DNA from: Stigmatella ashevillena | GTDB lineage: Bacteria; Myxococcota; Myxococcia; Myxococcales; Myxococcaceae | NCBI RefSeq assembly: GCF_028368975.1 | Contig: NZ_JAQNDM010000002.1 | Span: forward strand, 5,264,425-5,328,424 | Direction of reading: 5' to 3' | DNA length: 64,000 nucleotides | In this document: positions 43,502 through 53,671 of the stretch, in pieces | How positions within the stretch are numbered: the stretch's first letter is position 1 | Layout: every line of letters begins with the position of its first letter | Notes under the pieces: generated by a model | What the model was told of the DNA's origin: nothing | What the model saw: only the letters and a program-made list of their open reading frames with translations | Database searches by the model: none | Translations under genes and position numbers: made by a program

Positions 43502-43596
43502 TTCCGGAGCGGTCTGGAATACCCCCAAGGGGGCACAGTCAGACCTCATAGGCGCTGCTATCGAGTCTCCCTCTCGTCACACCTGGAGGGAGACCC

Positions 43597-45141
43597 ATGC
43601 AATTCAACCTGCCGTCGAACCACGGCCTATCCCAAGACGTACAGAAGGACCCGGATCTGCTCTGGCGAGCCCCGGACGGCTCGCCATCGCTGACCGATGT
43701 GCAGCACGCGGCCCTCGCGGCGGGCGTCGCACGAGGGACCTCCCTGCTCGTCGTTGCCCCGACGTCGACGGGCAAGACCCACATCGGCCTGTGGGCGCTC
43801 ATGGGGTGGCTGTTCTCCGATCAGCCCCGGCATGCCGTCTACCTGGTGACACATCGCGCGCTGGCCCGGCAGAAGTTCGAAGAGCTGACCAAGCTCCTCT
43901 GCGCACGTCACTTCCAAGGGGACAAGAGCAGCATCGCCCTCGCCACGGGAGACGCCGTGGAAGATGGCGAAGGGCACACGCCCACGCAGCCGCTCGAAGT
44001 CCCTGTCCTGGTGGCCACCTATGAGAAGTACCTCGCGATGGTCTCGGGGGCAGGCATCCGCGAGGACATGTCCCAGAGCCTCATCATCTGCGATGAGATC
44101 CAAATCCTGGGCGACGAGAGCCGTGGCCGCAACATCGAGATCCTGCTGACCTTGATGAAGAAAGCACGCTGGGGACAACTTGTGGGCTTGTCCGCCGTGC
44201 TCGACCCGAGTGACGCCAAGCACCTGAGTGACTGGCTGGGGGTGAAGCTCATCCACCTCAGCAGCCGGGAGAAGCACCTGCACTATGAGTGTCGCACCCC
44301 CACCCGCCTCCTCTCGTTCCGCACGGACCAGTCCGAGGCGGGAATCCAAGATCAGGAACGTCCCGCCTCGGCCCCGGATGACCTTCCAGCCCTCATCGCC
44401 CAGGTGCTTCGCCAGCCCCACAACCTGCCTGCGATCGTCTTCTGCACCTCCAAGAAACGGGTCTACGAAACCACGGGGGCCTATGCCCGCTCCCTCAAGC
44501 TCACGGTCTCGCCCACCCAATCCCTTCTGTCTGGATTGAGGGAATCCACTGCGGCGGCGCGCGAGCTGTCTTGCTACATCCCCAAGGGTTTCGCCTTCCA
44601 CACCGCTGACCTGCTCGATGCGGAGCGGCGTCTCGTCGAGGAAAAGATCGCAAAGCAAGAGATCAAGCTGGTCTTCGCCACCAGCACCCTCGCCGCGGGC
44701 GTCAACTTCCCCTTCAAGACGGCCATCTTCGACCGGTGGAAGCGATGGAATGATCGGACCAAAACCCATGAACCCTTGCCCGCGAGTGAGTTCCAGAACA
44801 TGGCCGGCAGGGTCGGCCGCATGGGGACGACGGGCACCCACGGAAGCGTCCTTCTGACTTCCACGGATGGATTTGCCGACAAGAAGAGCATCCGAATCTA
44901 CCTTCAGCCCGACCAGACCAATCCCCTCACCCCGCGCATCACGCCCCAGGCCTTCCATCAGCTCTCGCTTCAGCTCGTCTCTTCCGGGATGTGCGAGACC
45001 CAAGAGGAATTGGAGGAGCTGCTCCTGAGCAGCTTCAGCGCCACACGGGAGCAGGAGTCGAACCAGACCGGCCTTGCCCATTGGACTGCTCAACTCAACA
45101 AATCCACTGATGCGCTCAGGAACTGGGGGTTCATTTTATGA
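43597..45141 (+). CDS. Ski2-like superfamily 2 helicase, N-terminal part (RecA1-RecA2) of a split helicase-nuclease
   Basis: 514 residues. Motifs in order: Walker A APTSTGKT (54-61), motif II DEIQ (166-169), GLSAVL (198-203), GFAFHTADLLDAERR (331-345), motif V ATSTLAAGVNFP (361-372) and motif VI NMAGRVGRMG (401-410). The ATLAxGVN/GRxGR pair and the histidine in GFAFHTADL are Ski2/Hel308-type. After RecA2 the winged-helix domain begins (LLLSSFSATREQ, then ALRNWGFIL) and stops abruptly. The rest of that domain is encoded by the next gene, which overlaps as ATGA. A DNA or RNA translocase for phage defence is a reasonable inference. Confidence 0.85.
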   Translation: MQFNLPSNHGLSQDVQKDPDLLWRAPDGSPSLTDVQHAALAAGVARGTSLLVVAPTSTGKTHIGLWALMGWLFSDQPRHAVYLVTHRALARQKFEELTKLLCARHFQGDKSSIALATGDAVEDGEGHTPTQPLEVPVLVATYEKYLAMVSGAGIREDMSQSLIICDEIQILGDESRGRNIEILLTLMKKARWGQLVGLSAVLDPSDAKHLSDWLGVKLIHLSSREKHLHYECRTPTRLLSFRTDQSEAGIQDQERPASAPDDLPALIAQVLRQPHNLPAIVFCTSKKRVYETTGAYARSLKLTVSPTQSLLSGLRESTAAARELSCYIPKGFAFHTADLLDAERRLVEEKIAKQEIKLVFATSTLAAGVNFPFKTAIFDRWKRWNDRTKTHEPLPASEFQNMAGRVGRMGTTGTHGSVLLTSTDGFADKKSIRIYLQPDQTNPLTPRITPQAFHQLSLQLVSSGMCETQEELEELLLSSFSATREQESNQTGLAHWTAQLNKSTDALRNWGFIL

Positions 45142-46517
45142 CTCGCCTGTATGTCACGGAAACTGGCAAGCAGATCGCCCTGAGCGGCCTGCTTCCAGAA
45201 ACCGCCCACTACCTCCTGGACTATGTCTCGAGGAACCACGCACTTCTCTGCTCGATGCTTCCCACAGAAGGAAAGGGCGCTGGAGATCTGGACCAGTTCA
45301 ACTATTGCCTGATGAATGCAGCGCTCACGTCTACCGAGTTCGAGGGCACGCACAGGACCCGTATCGTGCCCTACGGGTTCGAGGAAACCACCGCCAACAA
45401 ACTCGTGCAGACGTACTCCGCAAGTCTCGCGGAAGCCCCCTGGGAAGCGCATCGACGCGCGGCCAACGCCTCCACCCTTCTCATGGACTGGCTCGAAGGC
45501 GTCGACATCAGCGCCCTGGAGGACACCTATCCAGATCTCCGGGCGGGTCCCATTCAGGCCTTGTGCCGCGATCTCGCTTGGTGCCTCTCAGGACTTGCCA
45601 ACATTCTCGCGTCCGCCACCCGCCCCAACCTCTCTGTCAACGAGCGGCCCGCCTGCATGAAGCAAACGCTCCCCCAGGCCCTCCAAGCACTGCACCGGCT
45701 GCCTGCGTTCATCCGGTTGCTGATCCGGCGTCTCCTGGCCGGCTTGCCCACGCCAGCGCTCTGGCTACTTGAGCTGGAGCCCGCCCTAGGTGGGCGTGCC
45801 GTGTCCAGGAATGAGGCCATCTCGCTTCACCAGGTGGGCTTGAGCTCCCTGGAGAGCCTCCGACGCCGAGCCCACTGGGAGGAGCTCATCCGCATCCTCG
45901 CCGCCACCGGCGCCTCCGACGCCAAGGCCCGTGCACACGAGATCCAGACCATGGCTCACGCGTGGCATGGGAAGCGGCGCGAGCGCGCCCTGAAGCGCCA
46001 ACTCCAGCGCCTCGATGAGACCGATCAGCCCTTGCTCAAGGAGTTCTATGACAGCCGGGAGAAGAAGTTCGAAGCCGCCTTCGACGCCCTGATGAAGCGC
46101 GTGGGGATTCCGTGCACGCTGTTTGACTCGGGTCAAAAGCCGGGCGCCTTCGACTACCTCCTGCGCATCGAAGGCAGGCCCCCAATCATCGTCGAGTGCA
46201 AGACCAAGCAAGGAGACAATCTCGTCGATCTCAACGCCGCGAGGACCGTGCTCAGCAGTTCGGAGCAGTACGGCCACCCGGGCACCTTCTGCGTCACGCT
46301 CTGCCAGCCGGGCGTCGATCCCAACGTCATCGAGAGCCTGCAAGAATGTACCCGCCTGAGCATTGCCGAGACACACGACTTCGCGGAGGCGATGACACGC
46401 CTCATGACGAACTCGCTGACCGCGCAGTCGTTCCATGACTGGCTGACCCAGCCCGGTCAGGTCACCTCGGAGATGCTCCTGGCCTATACGAACTCAGCCA
46501 CGGAATCCGCCGACTGA
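45138..46517 (+). CDS. Helicase C-terminal region (winged helix end, HhH) fused to a PD-(D/E)XK nuclease
   Basis: 459 residues. The N-terminus TRLYVTETGKQIALSGLLPETAHYLLDY reads as the second half of a Ski2-type winged-helix domain. Residues 185-255 resemble the ratchet/helix-hairpin-helix region (LIRRLLAGLPTPALWLLELE, then HQVGLSSLESLRRR). Residues 305-420 form a restriction-endonuclease-like domain with Glu312, Asp339 and Glu353-x-Lys355 (FDYLLRIEGRPPIIVECKTK), the PD-(D/E)XK signature. Together with the upstream gene it makes a complete helicase-nuclease of about 970 residues. The 4-bp overlap implies coupled translation, or a former single gene. Confidence 0.78.
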   Translation: MTRLYVTETGKQIALSGLLPETAHYLLDYVSRNHALLCSMLPTEGKGAGDLDQFNYCLMNAALTSTEFEGTHRTRIVPYGFEETTANKLVQTYSASLAEAPWEAHRRAANASTLLMDWLEGVDISALEDTYPDLRAGPIQALCRDLAWCLSGLANILASATRPNLSVNERPACMKQTLPQALQALHRLPAFIRLLIRRLLAGLPTPALWLLELEPALGGRAVSRNEAISLHQVGLSSLESLRRRAHWEELIRILAATGASDAKARAHEIQTMAHAWHGKRRERALKRQLQRLDETDQPLLKEFYDSREKKFEAAFDALMKRVGIPCTLFDSGQKPGAFDYLLRIEGRPPIIVECKTKQGDNLVDLNAARTVLSSSEQYGHPGTFCVTLCQPGVDPNVIESLQECTRLSIAETHDFAEAMTRLMTNSLTAQSFHDWLTQPGQVTSEMLLAYTNSATESAD

Positions 46518-46648: not shown

Positions 46649-46795
46649 CGTACAGCAGATGAACCCGGAAGCTGTCCACGCGGACAGAACCCCAAGAGTA
46701 GGTTTCCCGGACAGTTTCATTGATTTTTTCTATAAATAACGCATGCTGACTTGAACCTCCGAGTCACGGAAGTCCCTCTTTCGCGGGTTTCGTTC

Positions 46796-49700
46796 ATGAC
46801 AAGCATCCGGTCCAACTCCCCGAGCAATGTTCCCCCCCGCCCCAAAGAGGACAAGCCGGAAGCCAAACCGGTGGTCAAAGCCAAACCGGCGGAAGCCAAG
46901 GAACCGGCCGCCAAACAGCCGGTGACCACTGCCGCGACCGAGGCCGCGAAAAAGGACGCGTTCGCCACCCAGAACAAAGACGCGGCGCAACCACTGGATC
47001 TGCTTCGCGACACCAGTTCTCAAATCAGCGCCGCCACCACCGCCCGCCCTGCCACTGATTCAGCCGTGGAGGACAGCAACGAGCCCGTGGACCTGGCCGC
47101 CGTGGACGCCGCGAAGCCCAGCCCCTTGATCAAGACCGCGGCCGACGCCACGACCACCGAGGATGCCAAGATAGGGGCCACGGCGATCGCCGCCAAGCCC
47201 GCCCAGGAGCTGCTGAGCAGCACCGAAGTGAAGCGCAGCGCCCTGGCCACGGACGCCCTTGCCGACACCCTGGAGCCCGTGGACCTGGCCGCCGTAGACG
47301 CCGCGAAGCCCAGCCCTTTGATCAAGACCGCAGCCGACGTCACGACCACCGAGGATGCCAAGATAGGGGCCACGGCGATCTCCGCCGGGGGCGCCGCGAC
47401 GCCCGGCACTCCCGCGCTCGCGACTCCCTCCACGGGGGCGAACGCCGTGCTCACTTCGGCCAGGGCCATCACGAACCCGGCCGTTGGAACGAAGACGCCC
47501 GCTGCTCAGCGGCCGCTCGCCACCGGGACCCCAGACACGTTCTCCACCTCGCTGGCGGACGCCTCTCAACCGTCAGCGCTGGCGCGTGACGCCAGCGTGA
47601 AGCTGGGCGCCACGTCGCTCGCCGCCCAACCCCCCACCGTTGCCCCGGAGGAAGCAGGTCAACCCGTGGACTTGGCCGCCGTGGGGGGCCAGAAGCCGAA
47701 CGTCCTGATCAAGACCGGTGATGCCCCCAACGTGGATGCCCCCAACGTGGTCAGGGCCGCCGCCGATCCCTCGGCCGTGACCGCGGTTCCCGAGGACCCC
47801 ATCATCACCGGCGAGCAGCGCGCCCAGCAGGAGGTGGACGTCAAAACCGTGGCGGACGACCGCGCGGAGACGGAGACCCTCCACCAGAACATCAAGGACG
47901 GGACGTCTCAGAAGACGGAAGAAATCTTCTCCATGACGGCGGAAGGCGCGACGTTGCCCCCGAACGTCTCCGTCACCAAGCACAACGACAACCAGGTGGA
48001 GCTGGTCCGGCTGGACGAGAGCGGCAAAGAAATCGAGCGGACCTTCGCCACGCGGAACGCCGACGGCACGATGCAGCTCGACAGCCGAAGCTTCGCGGAC
48101 AACACCAACCAGCGCGACGTCGTCGAGGTCAACGCCGACGGCAGCACGTCCGTGAAGAGCGCGAGCTGGCAGAGCACCGAGAGCCAGGCCGCCCAGAACA
48201 CGCCCTCCTTCGAGCAGCTCGAGCAGTCGCGTGACCGCAACGTGAAGATCAACGAGCAGCGGATTGGCCAGAAGGACGCCGACGGCAACTGGGTGGCGGA
48301 GGGTGGCACGCTCTCCACCGACCAGTACGCACAGGCCGATGGCGCCGTCAAAGGCAGTCAGACCTCCTTCTCGAGCCAGCAGGGACTCGGAGGGGTCGAC
48401 GACAAGCTGAAGGGAAACTTCGCGGACCAGAATGGCACCGTGGACCGGGCCACGACGCATACCTACACCGTCCATCCCCCCGGGGAGGATGGCACCCAGC
48501 CCTTGCCCGAGTACGAGCGCATCGAGCGCTTCTCGCAGGGAGAGGCCCAGGCCACCTCCTACGTGAACGCCGAGCTGAGCACGGACACCAACCCCGTCAT
48601 GATCGTCGGAGACGGCGTGCCGGTCATGTCAGAGGATGACCACGTCGACTATGAGGCGACCGTGGGCACGCAGAACCACTCACGCGAGGACCTGAACAAC
48701 CTGCGGACCAAGCACGAGAACTTCTGGCAGAACCGGTACGACGCCAACGACGCCGGCCTGCAAGGCCAGACCCCCAAGCGCTGGCTGGCGGAGAACAAGG
48801 ACGACGCGAATACCTACGAGTCCCAGACCTTCGTGGAGGGCGCGCCCAATGCCTCCATCGTCACCCGCCGCGAGCTCCAAGCCGACAACACGGTGACCGA
48901 GACGTACGCCGGGAAGACGTTCTCGCCGGACCCCAACTCGGATGATCTGGTGGACGTGAAAGGCACCTCCACCACCCAGTATGGGGATGACGGGATGGTC
49001 GCTCAGTCCAGCTTCCAGCGCACGCAGGCAGACGGCAGTGTCGAGGATGGCACCTACAGCCGCACCCGGGAGCAGACCGCCGATGGGCTCCTGGTGACCG
49101 AGCATGCCGAGGGCAACGTCACCCAGCCCGACGGAAAGAAGTCCTCGTCCATCACGGACCGGCAGACGCGGGAAACCGATGAGGGCAAGGAGCTGATCCG
49201 CTCGTCCCAGGCCGTCATCGAAGACGGCAAGCGGGTGACCCACGAGCTCACCCAGGACGGAGAGAAGCTGCTGACTTCCGCGGCGGATGGCACCAATGCC
49301 GTCGAAATCTCGGATGCGTCCCAGTTCGAGCAGCCCTTCGAGGAGAACCTGGCGGCGACCGCCGCGGCCACGAACCTGACCAACGTCAAGGGACTGACCG
49401 ACGCCGGGGCGATCTTCACGGGGCTGAGGGAGGGACAGATCACCAAGGCGCAGGCCCTGCTGGGCAGCAACCTCGACAATGCCCTCACGCAGACCGCATC
49501 CGCGTACAGGACCGCGGGCATCGGGCTCGGCGCGGGTGGCGGCGTCCTCGGCGCGAGCGCGGCGGCCGCGTCGATGATGGATGCGGTCAAGACCAAGAAC
49601 AACCTGGGCATCGCCGCGGCCTCCATCGGCCTGGGCGGTGCGGCCGCGGACATGGGCTCGGCGGCGAGCGTCATGAAGGGGGCCATCGGCAAGTTCGGCG

Positions 49701-50077
49701 GGATGCTGGGAATCGCCGGGGCGGCGCTGGGCAATGTCTCCAACATCCTGGGCGGCGTCGACAGCATCATGACGTCGGACAAGACAGGCCTGGAGGGCCA
49801 GCGCATCAAGGGCATCACGAACGTCGTGACAGGTGGCTTGGGGCTGGCGGCCCTGGCCATGGGCTCTCCCGTGCTCGCCTTGGGCTTCGGCGTCGTGGGA
49901 CTGGGCGTCAACGCCATCGTCGAGCTCATCACCGACGATGCGCACCAGATCGGCGAGCTGAAGATCGACGATCCCAACTACCGGCCCTCGCTGGAGGAAG
50001 CAGCTCCCCCCCCTCCAGCGCAAACGCCCGAGGAAGTGCCCCCCGAGTACTGGGGAGCCACTTGGAACCTGTGGTAG
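46796..50077 (+). CDS. Large repeat-containing protein with glycine/alanine-rich C-terminal hydrophobic block
   Basis: 1,093 residues from the ATG at 46796; an in-frame TTG at 46751 is less likely. Residues 1-330 are disordered and Ala/Pro/Lys-rich, with a 36-residue unit (EPVDLAAVDAAKPSPLIKTA type) present twice almost identically, 64 residues apart, plus a degenerate third copy. Residues 340-880 are polar and beta-rich, with recurring NADGT, ADGS and TYS-type strands like fibre or YD-type repeats. Residues 900-1060 form glycine-zipper hydrophobic helices (GIGLGAGGGVLGASAAAASMM, VVTGGLGLAALAMGSP). This recalls secreted effectors or translocators. No family, signal peptide or catalytic motif is recognised. 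Confidence 0.7.
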   Translation: MTSIRSNSPSNVPPRPKEDKPEAKPVVKAKPAEAKEPAAKQPVTTAATEAAKKDAFATQNKDAAQPLDLLRDTSSQISAATTARPATDSAVEDSNEPVDLAAVDAAKPSPLIKTAADATTTEDAKIGATAIAAKPAQELLSSTEVKRSALATDALADTLEPVDLAAVDAAKPSPLIKTAADVTTTEDAKIGATAISAGGAATPGTPALATPSTGANAVLTSARAITNPAVGTKTPAAQRPLATGTPDTFSTSLADASQPSALARDASVKLGATSLAAQPPTVAPEEAGQPVDLAAVGGQKPNVLIKTGDAPNVDAPNVVRAAADPSAVTAVPEDPIITGEQRAQQEVDVKTVADDRAETETLHQNIKDGTSQKTEEIFSMTAEGATLPPNVSVTKHNDNQVELVRLDESGKEIERTFATRNADGTMQLDSRSFADNTNQRDVVEVNADGSTSVKSASWQSTESQAAQNTPSFEQLEQSRDRNVKINEQRIGQKDADGNWVAEGGTLSTDQYAQADGAVKGSQTSFSSQQGLGGVDDKLKGNFADQNGTVDRATTHTYTVHPPGEDGTQPLPEYERIERFSQGEAQATSYVNAELSTDTNPVMIVGDGVPVMSEDDHVDYEATVGTQNHSREDLNNLRTKHENFWQNRYDANDAGLQGQTPKRWLAENKDDANTYESQTFVEGAPNASIVTRRELQADNTVTETYAGKTFSPDPNSDDLVDVKGTSTTQYGDDGMVAQSSFQRTQADGSVEDGTYSRTREQTADGLLVTEHAEGNVTQPDGKKSSSITDRQTRETDEGKELIRSSQAVIEDGKRVTHELTQDGEKLLTSAADGTNAVEISDASQFEQPFEENLAATAAATNLTNVKGLTDAGAIFTGLREGQITKAQALLGSNLDNALTQTASAYRTAGIGLGAGGGVLGASAAAASMMDAVKTKNNLGIAAASIGLGGAAADMGSAASVMKGAIGKFGGMLGIAGAALGNVSNILGGVDSIMTSDKTGLEGQRIKGITNVVTGGLGLAALAMGSPVLALGFGVVGLGVNAIVELITDDAHQIGELKIDDPNYRPSLEEAAPPPPAQTPEEVPPEYWGATWNLW
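47081..47380 (+). repeat. 108-bp direct repeat inside the large protein gene
   Basis: Copy 1 at 47081-47188 and copy 2 at 47273-47380 are nearly identical (differences near the middle), with a 192-bp period. A separate 15-bp tandem duplication (GATGCCCCCAACGTG) lies at 47720-47749. Confidence 0.85.
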
Positions 50078-51884: not shown

Positions 51885-52748
51885 TCAGTTGGGGATGTCG
51901 AGCTTGCCCACAAACGCCTGCAGCTGTTGAAAAGCCTCCTCGAAAGGAATGAACGACGCGCGGGTCGAACTCTTGAGGGCTTCGTAGTCCACCCGGGCCC
52001 GTTCCTTGACCTCGACACTGTTGAACGCAGCCCGCGAGACCCGCACCTCCCGCGCCTCGGCCTTTCTTTTCAGATACTCCGCAACGCGTGTGACATCGAG
52101 GCCTACGTCCGCGCGCAAAAGCACCGCGATATCCAGCAGATCCTGCCTGCGATTCCGATTGCGAATGGGCTGCTGGAGGAGCGCCCGAAGCTTCTCCGCG
52201 ACGATGTCCTCGACCGTACTCACACGGAGAAGGTTCACGCCCTGAACATCAATGTCCCGGGTATCACAAATGGGCTCATTGAGACTGATGTCCAGGGGGA
52301 CGATGTTCGGGCAGGGTTGCCCTTTTGCGATGCGCTCCTGGTTCCGAGGCTCATCGGGAAGCGCATACCCGATGGTGACCGCATAGGTGACGAAGGTCTT
52401 CTCCGCTCCGGGCGGCTGGCGTTCGACTTTTTGAACGCGGAAAGCGACCCCCAACACGCGCTGAACCTGCTCCAAACCTTGGGTCAGATGCTTTCGCAGC
52501 TGCTCCTCATTCAGGGAGGAGTCCGTCGATGAGAAGTCCAGGTCCTTGGTGCTCCGATTCGGCTGCCAGACGAAATCAAGGGCATTGCCTCCCTTGAACA
52601 CCAGGGTGCTGCTCAAGGTCCTCGAGCCCGCGATCGCCCGGAGCACGGCGTACTGAGCGAACCGGCCCCGGGCTTCTGTCACGGGGAGGCTGTTGCTCGC
52701 GGCCCAGGCGGAGATTTCCTGGAACGCCGAAGGATAGGTCGTCTTCAT
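51885..52748 (-). CDS. AbiEii-type nucleotidyltransferase toxin (type IV toxin-antitoxin)
   Basis: 287 residues with the AbiEii/AbiGii nucleotidyltransferase signature FKGGNALDF (51-59) and RSTKDLDFSS (65-74), then a helical domain with VEDIVAEKLRALLQQPIRNRNRRQDLLDIAVLL. Toxins of this family are GTP- or nucleotide-transferases that stop growth during phage infection. The gene overlaps its AbiEi partner by 4 bp (ATGA), the standard arrangement with the antitoxin first. It lies about 5 kb downstream of the helicase-nuclease pair. Confidence 0.87.
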   Translation of the reverse strand: MKTTYPSAFQEISAWAASNSLPVTEARGRFAQYAVLRAIAGSRTLSSTLVFKGGNALDFVWQPNRSTKDLDFSSTDSSLNEEQLRKHLTQGLEQVQRVLGVAFRVQKVERQPPGAEKTFVTYAVTIGYALPDEPRNQERIAKGQPCPNIVPLDISLNEPICDTRDIDVQGVNLLRVSTVEDIVAEKLRALLQQPIRNRNRRQDLLDIAVLLRADVGLDVTRVAEYLKRKAEAREVRVSRAAFNSVEVKERARVDYEALKSSTRASFIPFEEAFQQLQAFVGKLDIPN

Positions 52749-53671
52749 CTCGCCCCCTGGAGGACATCAATGGGCACGTTGATCGACAGCTTCCAACGCT
52801 CACTGAAGTCCGGCTTGAATGGGGCCCCCCCGAAGAGCTTGCTGGAGCCGCCCCGCTTGGCTTGGGCGGGCCACTGCTCCACTTGCGGGTGGGTCATCCC
52901 AAGCTGTTCCAAGATGAACCCCACGCGCTGCTTGAGGATGGCGACGTTAAATTGCTCCACGAGTTCAACCAGATGGTTGACGTCCAGCGTGTCCCGAATC
53001 CGTGCCCACGCATCCAAGACCGGACCGATGCCGCCACACCACTCTGGATGCAACAGGCCATCCACCAGCGTCCTTTCGGGTGTGGTCACGCGAACCGGAT
53101 AACCTTTGGGCTGATATTCCGCTGTCCCGATCAAGGCGGTGCCCCTCGAAAGGGAGTGCCAGCGAATCGGGGTCCCCATGATCTCATCCGCCGTGCGGCC
53201 ACGGACAAGCGACAAGCCCAGCCACAAACCCTCCCAGTCTCCCTCCCGGGTTCCTGGTGGAAGCATCCCCCCCGTGTGACCCGAGGGCAGAAGCGCGTGG
53301 ATCTCCTTGGGAAACTCCTCCGTCATTCCGTGGAAGACGAGCGCCGTGACATGGCTCAAGGCCGCATAGGGGTGGAGCTCCATGAGGATCTCCTCCTCTT
53401 GAATGCCCCCGGTCTGCACAAAGGGAGACCTGGCTTCATAAATGCGTGAGAGCCCCTTGATCGGCTTCAGATCACCGTTCTGGACCAAGCGGTTGAGGAT
53501 CGCGTGGATCTCCTCCAATCTGCTGGGAGCCCCCTCCCATCGCCGCGCGTCAGCCGGTATCCGCTGCGTCGCACGTCTCAGCAGAAGCAGCGCACGCCAG
53601 TCGGAGATGACCCTTCGCTGCTCCGCAGCCATCTCCTCCAGCATCGCTTGGCTGTAGGTCGCTTTTCTCAA
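52745..53671 (-). CDS. AbiEi-type antitoxin and autoregulator
   Basis: 308 residues, starting at TTG 53671 or possibly at ATG 53644. The N-terminal segment (LEEIHAILNRLVQNGDLKPIKGLSRIYEARSPF) is a winged-helix type domain. The AbiEi core contains SHVTALVFHGMTEEFP and VRVTTPERTLVDGLLHPEWCGG, where TPERTLVDGL is characteristic. AbiEi antitoxins neutralise the toxin and bind inverted repeats in their own promoter. Exactly such a palindrome lies at 53684-53724, 12 bp upstream of the TTG. Confidence 0.85.
   Translation of the reverse strand: MRKATYSQAMLEEMAAEQRRVISDWRALLLLRRATQRIPADARRWEGAPSRLEEIHAILNRLVQNGDLKPIKGLSRIYEARSPFVQTGGIQEEEILMELHPYAALSHVTALVFHGMTEEFPKEIHALLPSGHTGGMLPPGTREGDWEGLWLGLSLVRGRTADEIMGTPIRWHSLSRGTALIGTAEYQPKGYPVRVTTPERTLVDGLLHPEWCGGIGPVLDAWARIRDTLDVNHLVELVEQFNVAILKQRVGFILEQLGMTHPQVEQWPAQAKRGGSSKLFGGAPFKPDFSERWKLSINVPIDVLQGAR

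Follow-up and report, generated by a model that had tools for sequence, protein, structure and literature searches.

Two overlapping genes of Stigmatella ashevillena, ORF1 and ORF2, probably (we put the odds at about 0.72) form one heteromeric helicase-nuclease, predicted to cut DNA, that acts against phages or other mobile DNA. They lie in a window of 64,000 nucleotides, the whole stretch of DNA that was analysed, and belong to an apparently unnamed family for which antiviral or anti-mobile-DNA defence is the most likely role, because elsewhere the family occurs as a single gene on prophages, conjugative plasmids and islands. The features of the pair are as follows.

43585-43589: strong Shine-Dalgarno sequence GGAGG for ORF1
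43597..45141, + strand: ORF1, 514 aa; RecA1, RecA2 and the start of the winged-helix domain of a Ski2/Hel308-type SF2 helicase
43756..43779, + strand: Walker A (motif I) APTSTGKT, ORF1 residues 54-61, with K60; PTSTGKT core invariant in 15 homologues
44092..44103, + strand: motif II DEIQ, ORF1 residues 166-169; DE[IV]Q in 15 homologues
44674..44712, + strand: motif V FATSTLAAGVNFP, ORF1 residues 360-372; identical in 15 homologues
44791..44829, + strand: motif VI region FQNMAGRVGRMGT, ORF1 residues 399-411; near identical in 15 homologues
45138..45141, + strand: ATGA stop/start overlap of ORF1 and ORF2; break in the winged-helix wing
45138..46517, + strand: ORF2, 459 aa; remainder of the helicase, then the nuclease
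45138..45968, + strand: predicted Hel308-type winged-helix end, ratchet domain and C-terminal helical domain, ORF2 residues 1-277 (AlphaFold2 and VIA-align 2)
45972..46469, + strand: predicted PD-(D/E)XK nuclease domain, ORF2 residues 279-444 (AlphaFold2 and VIA-align 2)
46071..46073, + strand: E312 of ORF2, putative catalytic residue; invariant in 15 homologues
46152..46154, + strand: D339 of ORF2, putative catalytic residue in a (P/F)D motif; invariant in 15 homologues, PD in the fused forms
46194..46202, + strand: E353-C354-K355 of ORF2, putative catalytic ExK; ExK invariant in 15 homologues

ORF1 was matched by the Pfam profiles DEAD (3e-17) and Helicase_C (1.4e-5) and, among PDB sequences, by Hel308, Brr2, Ski2 and polymerase theta helicases, the best being Hel308 2p6r (2.7e-29). 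With the conserved motifs, these matches bear out the complete Ski2/Hel308 motor recognised in the initial annotation, which had also given the coordinates and residue numbers correctly, including K60 as the Walker A lysine. The dN/dS values of both ORFs were 0.13-0.17 in three species pairs, indicating that both genes are constrained and that neither is a chance reading frame; the gene pair is real and conserved. Its GC3 of 0.80-0.81, compared with 0.87-0.91 in the direct neighbours, lies inside the range of the other genes of the window (0.69-0.91) and thus does not indicate a foreign origin.

No significant relative of ORF2 was found by sequence in Pfam, NCBIfam, PADLOC, PHROGs or the PDB. 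An AlphaFold2 model built with 11 homologues was confident (pLDDT 86.7, pTM 0.85) and was compared with solved structures using VIA-align 2. Residues 1-277 superimposed on residues 471-686 of Hel308 2p6r (Z 13.6, rmsd 2.8, 207 aligned) and on the Hel308-type structure 2zj8 (Z 15.1), while residues 279-444 superimposed on the nuclease domain of FokI, 2fok (Z 13.9, rmsd 2.9, 157 aligned), and to a lesser extent on BspD6I (Z about 11) and Hna 9yhn (Z 8.6, rmsd 4.9). The nuclease elements in the model are H308-322, E326-328, E340-342, E350-355, H365-377 and E384-389. Since Foldseek E-values for the model were weak (best 5e-3), the fold assignment rests on the structural Z-scores, the domain coverage and the invariant residues E312, D339, E353 and K355. 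The modelled ORF2 is predicted to be the C-terminal half of a Hel308 protein joined to a FokI-like PD-(D/E)XK nuclease. Helicase accessory domains and a C-terminal nuclease had been proposed for this protein from its sequence; the model and structural comparison agree, the nuclease fold is present, and the four residues named at the time were correctly placed and are invariant in all 15 aligned homologues. The RecA1-RecA2-winged helix-ratchet-helical order of Hel308 is found in ORF1 by sequence and in ORF2 by structure.

Among Pseudomonadota, plasmids and viral contigs, the homologue is a single frame of 958-967 aa (about 965), seen in Cereibacter plasmids, Pandoraea, Mesorhizobium, Marinovum, Sulfitobacter and three viral contigs. 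These single-gene homologues are collinear across ORF1 and ORF2 and share 31-37% identity over the C-terminal half. All seven Myxococcaceae copies, in the window and six further genomes belonging to three genera, are split, and an NTGA overlap occurs at the same protein position in 7 of 7. The break falls between the two wing strands of the winged helix, in a loop that is 1-3 residues longer in fused proteins. The split forms make up one group (100/100) in a 15-row tree, and midpoint rooting nests that group beside fused forms; this favours a single fission, with long branches that leave the rooting unsure. It appears that the ancestral form is one gene. An AlphaFold2 model of the full-length fused Pandoraea protein was poor (pLDDT 54.6) and not usable. 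Because the ORF1/ORF2 junctions of the Myxococcaceae copies have no conserved slippery sequence, programmed -1 frameshifting to a fused protein was set aside and stop-restart is preferred. The two-gene operon first described is thus a real gene pair, but the family is basically a single gene of about 965 aa, apparently split once, in Myxococcaceae.

The pair is present in 7 of 195 genomes of the phylum. Scanning the genome collection with ORF2 alone gave no matches, and scanning with the alignment gave 8 loci. A match in G101 (L008) is a valyl-tRNA synthetase and was discarded as a false hit. No match was found in phage GenBank records. The Methylobacterium copy is interrupted, and Bradyrhizobium retains a remnant. 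Plasmid helicases of Rhodopseudomonas, Hymenobacter and Agrobacterium were set aside, their similarity being limited to the motor; on the Rhodopseudomonas plasmid (L051:1-13173) the other Ski2-like helicase stands beside TIR, caspase-like and phospholipase D-like genes, possibly a different defence cluster. The malic enzyme is also found in the sister genomes G077 and G079, of the same genus, but is followed there by other genes; about 18 and 39 kb separate it from the downstream homologue, and the comparison did not give a clean empty site.

The genomic contexts of the homologues are mobile or defensive and none is housekeeping, which supports a mobile system against phages or other mobile elements. 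The sample is small, with three viral contigs and one CBASS neighbourhood, and the best evidence comes from the fused homologues rather than from the copy in the window. Of the viral copies, one lies in a prophage between a phage DNA primase and the terminase large subunit, portal and head protease genes (L054), a second is near an Rz-like spanin gene and a Dam-type methylase (L055), and the third adjoins Zot and other inovirus genes (L056). After the Pandoraea copy come a WYL regulator and a complete, directly adjoining type II CBASS operon (phospholipase, cyclase, E1-E2, JAB); a phage-type integrase lies farther on. Several phage-type integrases and a resolvase accompany the Mesorhizobium copy, a phage-type integrase lies immediately downstream of the Sulfitobacter copy, and an IS66 element is upstream of that in Marinovum. 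The Cereibacter copies are on two conjugative plasmids, where a row of UvrD-like, DarT-like and ADP-ribosylglycohydrolase genes nearby (L009:17396-21170 and L010:17396-21170) may be a further defence operon. No homologue was found in a housekeeping operon among the neighbourhoods examined.

Neighbours of the Myxococcaceae copies are unrelated between genera, and no integrase or known defence gene was recognised beside most of them, as judged from ORF starts only. The AbiE system noted about 5 kb away in the window is real (51885-53671, - strand; AbiEi 1.4e-41, AbiEii nucleotidyltransferase 4e-74 with PADLOC; start/stop overlapping), but is weak evidence for a defence role, as it accompanies only this copy and that of G078, where an AbiEi homologue lies at L011:18130-19059; none of the genes called near the other five copies was recognised as AbiE. 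Also in the window, 46751-50077 (+ strand) encodes an 1108-aa protein without a Pfam match, which has several paralogues of variable length and N-terminus in the genus. At L014 and L015, from two genomes that share a genus, the pair is convergent with, and overlaps tail to tail, a gene of about 1030 aa which by eye resembles the error-prone polymerase gene dnaE2.

A role mainly against plasmids and conjugation rather than phages, as in DdmDE, and serving competition between mobile elements, would fit the fused copies on two conjugative plasmids and in islands with integrases, and DdmD nuclease domains were among the weak Foldseek matches of the ORF2 model. Nonetheless, those matches have E-values above 1, DdmD has a different motor and partner from the Hel308-type pair, and three copies are in or beside phage genomes, and we consider this reading rather unlikely. 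It is improbable that the pair is a host helicase-nuclease for DNA repair or replication restart, a bacterial counterpart of Hel308/HELQ: the motor is indeed closest to Hel308 and the DNA polymerase theta helicase, and a dnaE2-like gene abuts the pair in two genomes, but so few genomes of the phylum have the pair, its neighbours vary between genera, homologues are carried by prophages and plasmids, and copies are interrupted or remnant in Methylobacterium and Bradyrhizobium. That the pair is the motor-nuclease subunit of a modification-dependent or type I/III-like restriction system is very improbable; although the nuclease domain is closest to FokI and BspD6I, the motor is Hel308-type and not HsdR/Res-type, and no methyltransferase or specificity gene lies by the pair in the window or was noticed beside most homologues. 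Recent decay leaving a non-functional pair in myxobacteria, which an apparently single-gene ancestor might suggest, is hardly credible, since seven genomes from three genera share the break and its overlap, dN/dS is low in both halves and every catalytic residue is retained.

We compared the helicase-nuclease pair with known defence systems and found that it is neither Hachiman nor Hna. Hachiman consists of a Ski2-like helicase, HamB, and a D-E(X)K nuclease, HamA, with likeness to type IIS restriction enzymes, and HamB has an N-terminal alpha-helical domain which binds HamA (PMC12278908). The ORF1 motor matches HamB profiles (best 3.5e-34) and the full-length profile of the family matches solved HamB (1.1e-15). 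In contrast to HamB, where RecA1 starts near residue 300, it starts near residue 30 in ORF1; HamB models match the motor alone, and the nuclease forms the C-terminus of the helicase chain rather than a separate HamA. It is the missing N-terminal domain and the nuclease on the helicase's own C-terminus that separate the family from Hachiman. No DUF1837 (hamA) match was found in the flanking ORFs scanned with Pfam; a whole-genome search with PF08878 likewise gave no matches, nor did it recover its control; and HamA is absent among the listed structural matches of ORF2, which is no proof of difference.

The closest functional parallel, missing from the initial annotation, is Hna, a single gene for a helicase with a C-terminal PD-(D/E)XK nuclease that acts by abortive infection and has a DinG/XPD-like motor and 845 aa (PMC13381803). 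The C-terminal nuclease is on the helicase chain in our fused homologues, as in Hna, and on the second chain in the split pair, and its fold is similar (9yhn). The family is not Hna because its motor belongs to another SF2 family, Hel308-type with a ratchet domain in a protein of about 965 aa. Hna is not among the 58 solved sequences listed for the full-length profile. Archaeal Hel308/Hjm and the DNA polymerase theta helicase domain share the order of motor, winged helix, ratchet and C-terminal helical domain, but are without this C-terminal nuclease and are not split in this fashion; Hel308 has been reported absent from bacteria (PMC12278908). The PADLOC candidate PDC-M23B matches the helicase core of ORF1 (4.7e-30) and of a fused homologue (6.7e-30), but the match is restricted to the motor and no second gene was found; no description of it was found in the open-access literature. 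YprA-family defence helicases with C-terminal nucleases, Druantia and ARMADA (PMC12458937), are a further parallel, likened by description only. No open-access paper was found that describes a Hel308-type helicase with a C-terminal PD-(D/E)XK nuclease as a defence gene, in keeping with the earlier statement that the layout matches no named system. What was called a previously undescribed defence operon therefore stands as to the lack of a named match and the mobile and defence contexts of homologues, but not as a basically two-gene operon, being a one-gene family split in Myxococcaceae.

By analogy with Hachiman and Hna, the pair is predicted to work with the helicase as sensor and the nuclease as effector. 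ORF1 would be the ATP-driven motor, a DNA translocase by homology, and ORF2 would supply the ratchet, regulatory helical domains and the C-terminal nuclease; the two chains would rejoin through their shared winged-helix domain. Neither is expected to be a complete helicase, since the DNA-gripping ratchet domain sits on ORF2. The complex probably loads on single-stranded or 3′-tailed DNA from phage or plasmid replication and may move 3′ to 5′ as Hel308 does, which prefers 3′ to 5′ DNA unwinding (PMC12278908). A trigger resembling that of Hachiman, proposed to be 3′ single-stranded DNA entering HamB (PMC12278908), or of Hna, a 3′-5′ ssDNA exonuclease activated by phage SSB (PMC13381803), appears most likely by analogy. 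The nuclease would then cut the DNA brought by the motor, destroying the invader or aborting the infected cell. A bolder and distinctly doubtful idea is that the fission itself is a regulatory device, such that the motor chain and the ratchet-nuclease chain stay separate or loosely associated and assemble, or gain licence to cut, only upon a phage signal; if so, the split inside the winged helix would have created a two-key defence system.

The pair is thus very probably a defence or anti-mobile-element system from an unnamed single-gene family with a lineage-specific split. It would add a Hel308-type motor to the helicase-nuclease defences, beside Hachiman with its separate nuclease and Hna with its DinG-type motor, which suggests that motor-plus-PD-(D/E)XK defence has been assembled more than once. 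Because Hel308 has been reported absent from bacteria, a bacterial protein of Hel308 architecture is notable in itself, and the clean split at the winged-helix wing offers a natural test of whether helicase halves work in trans.
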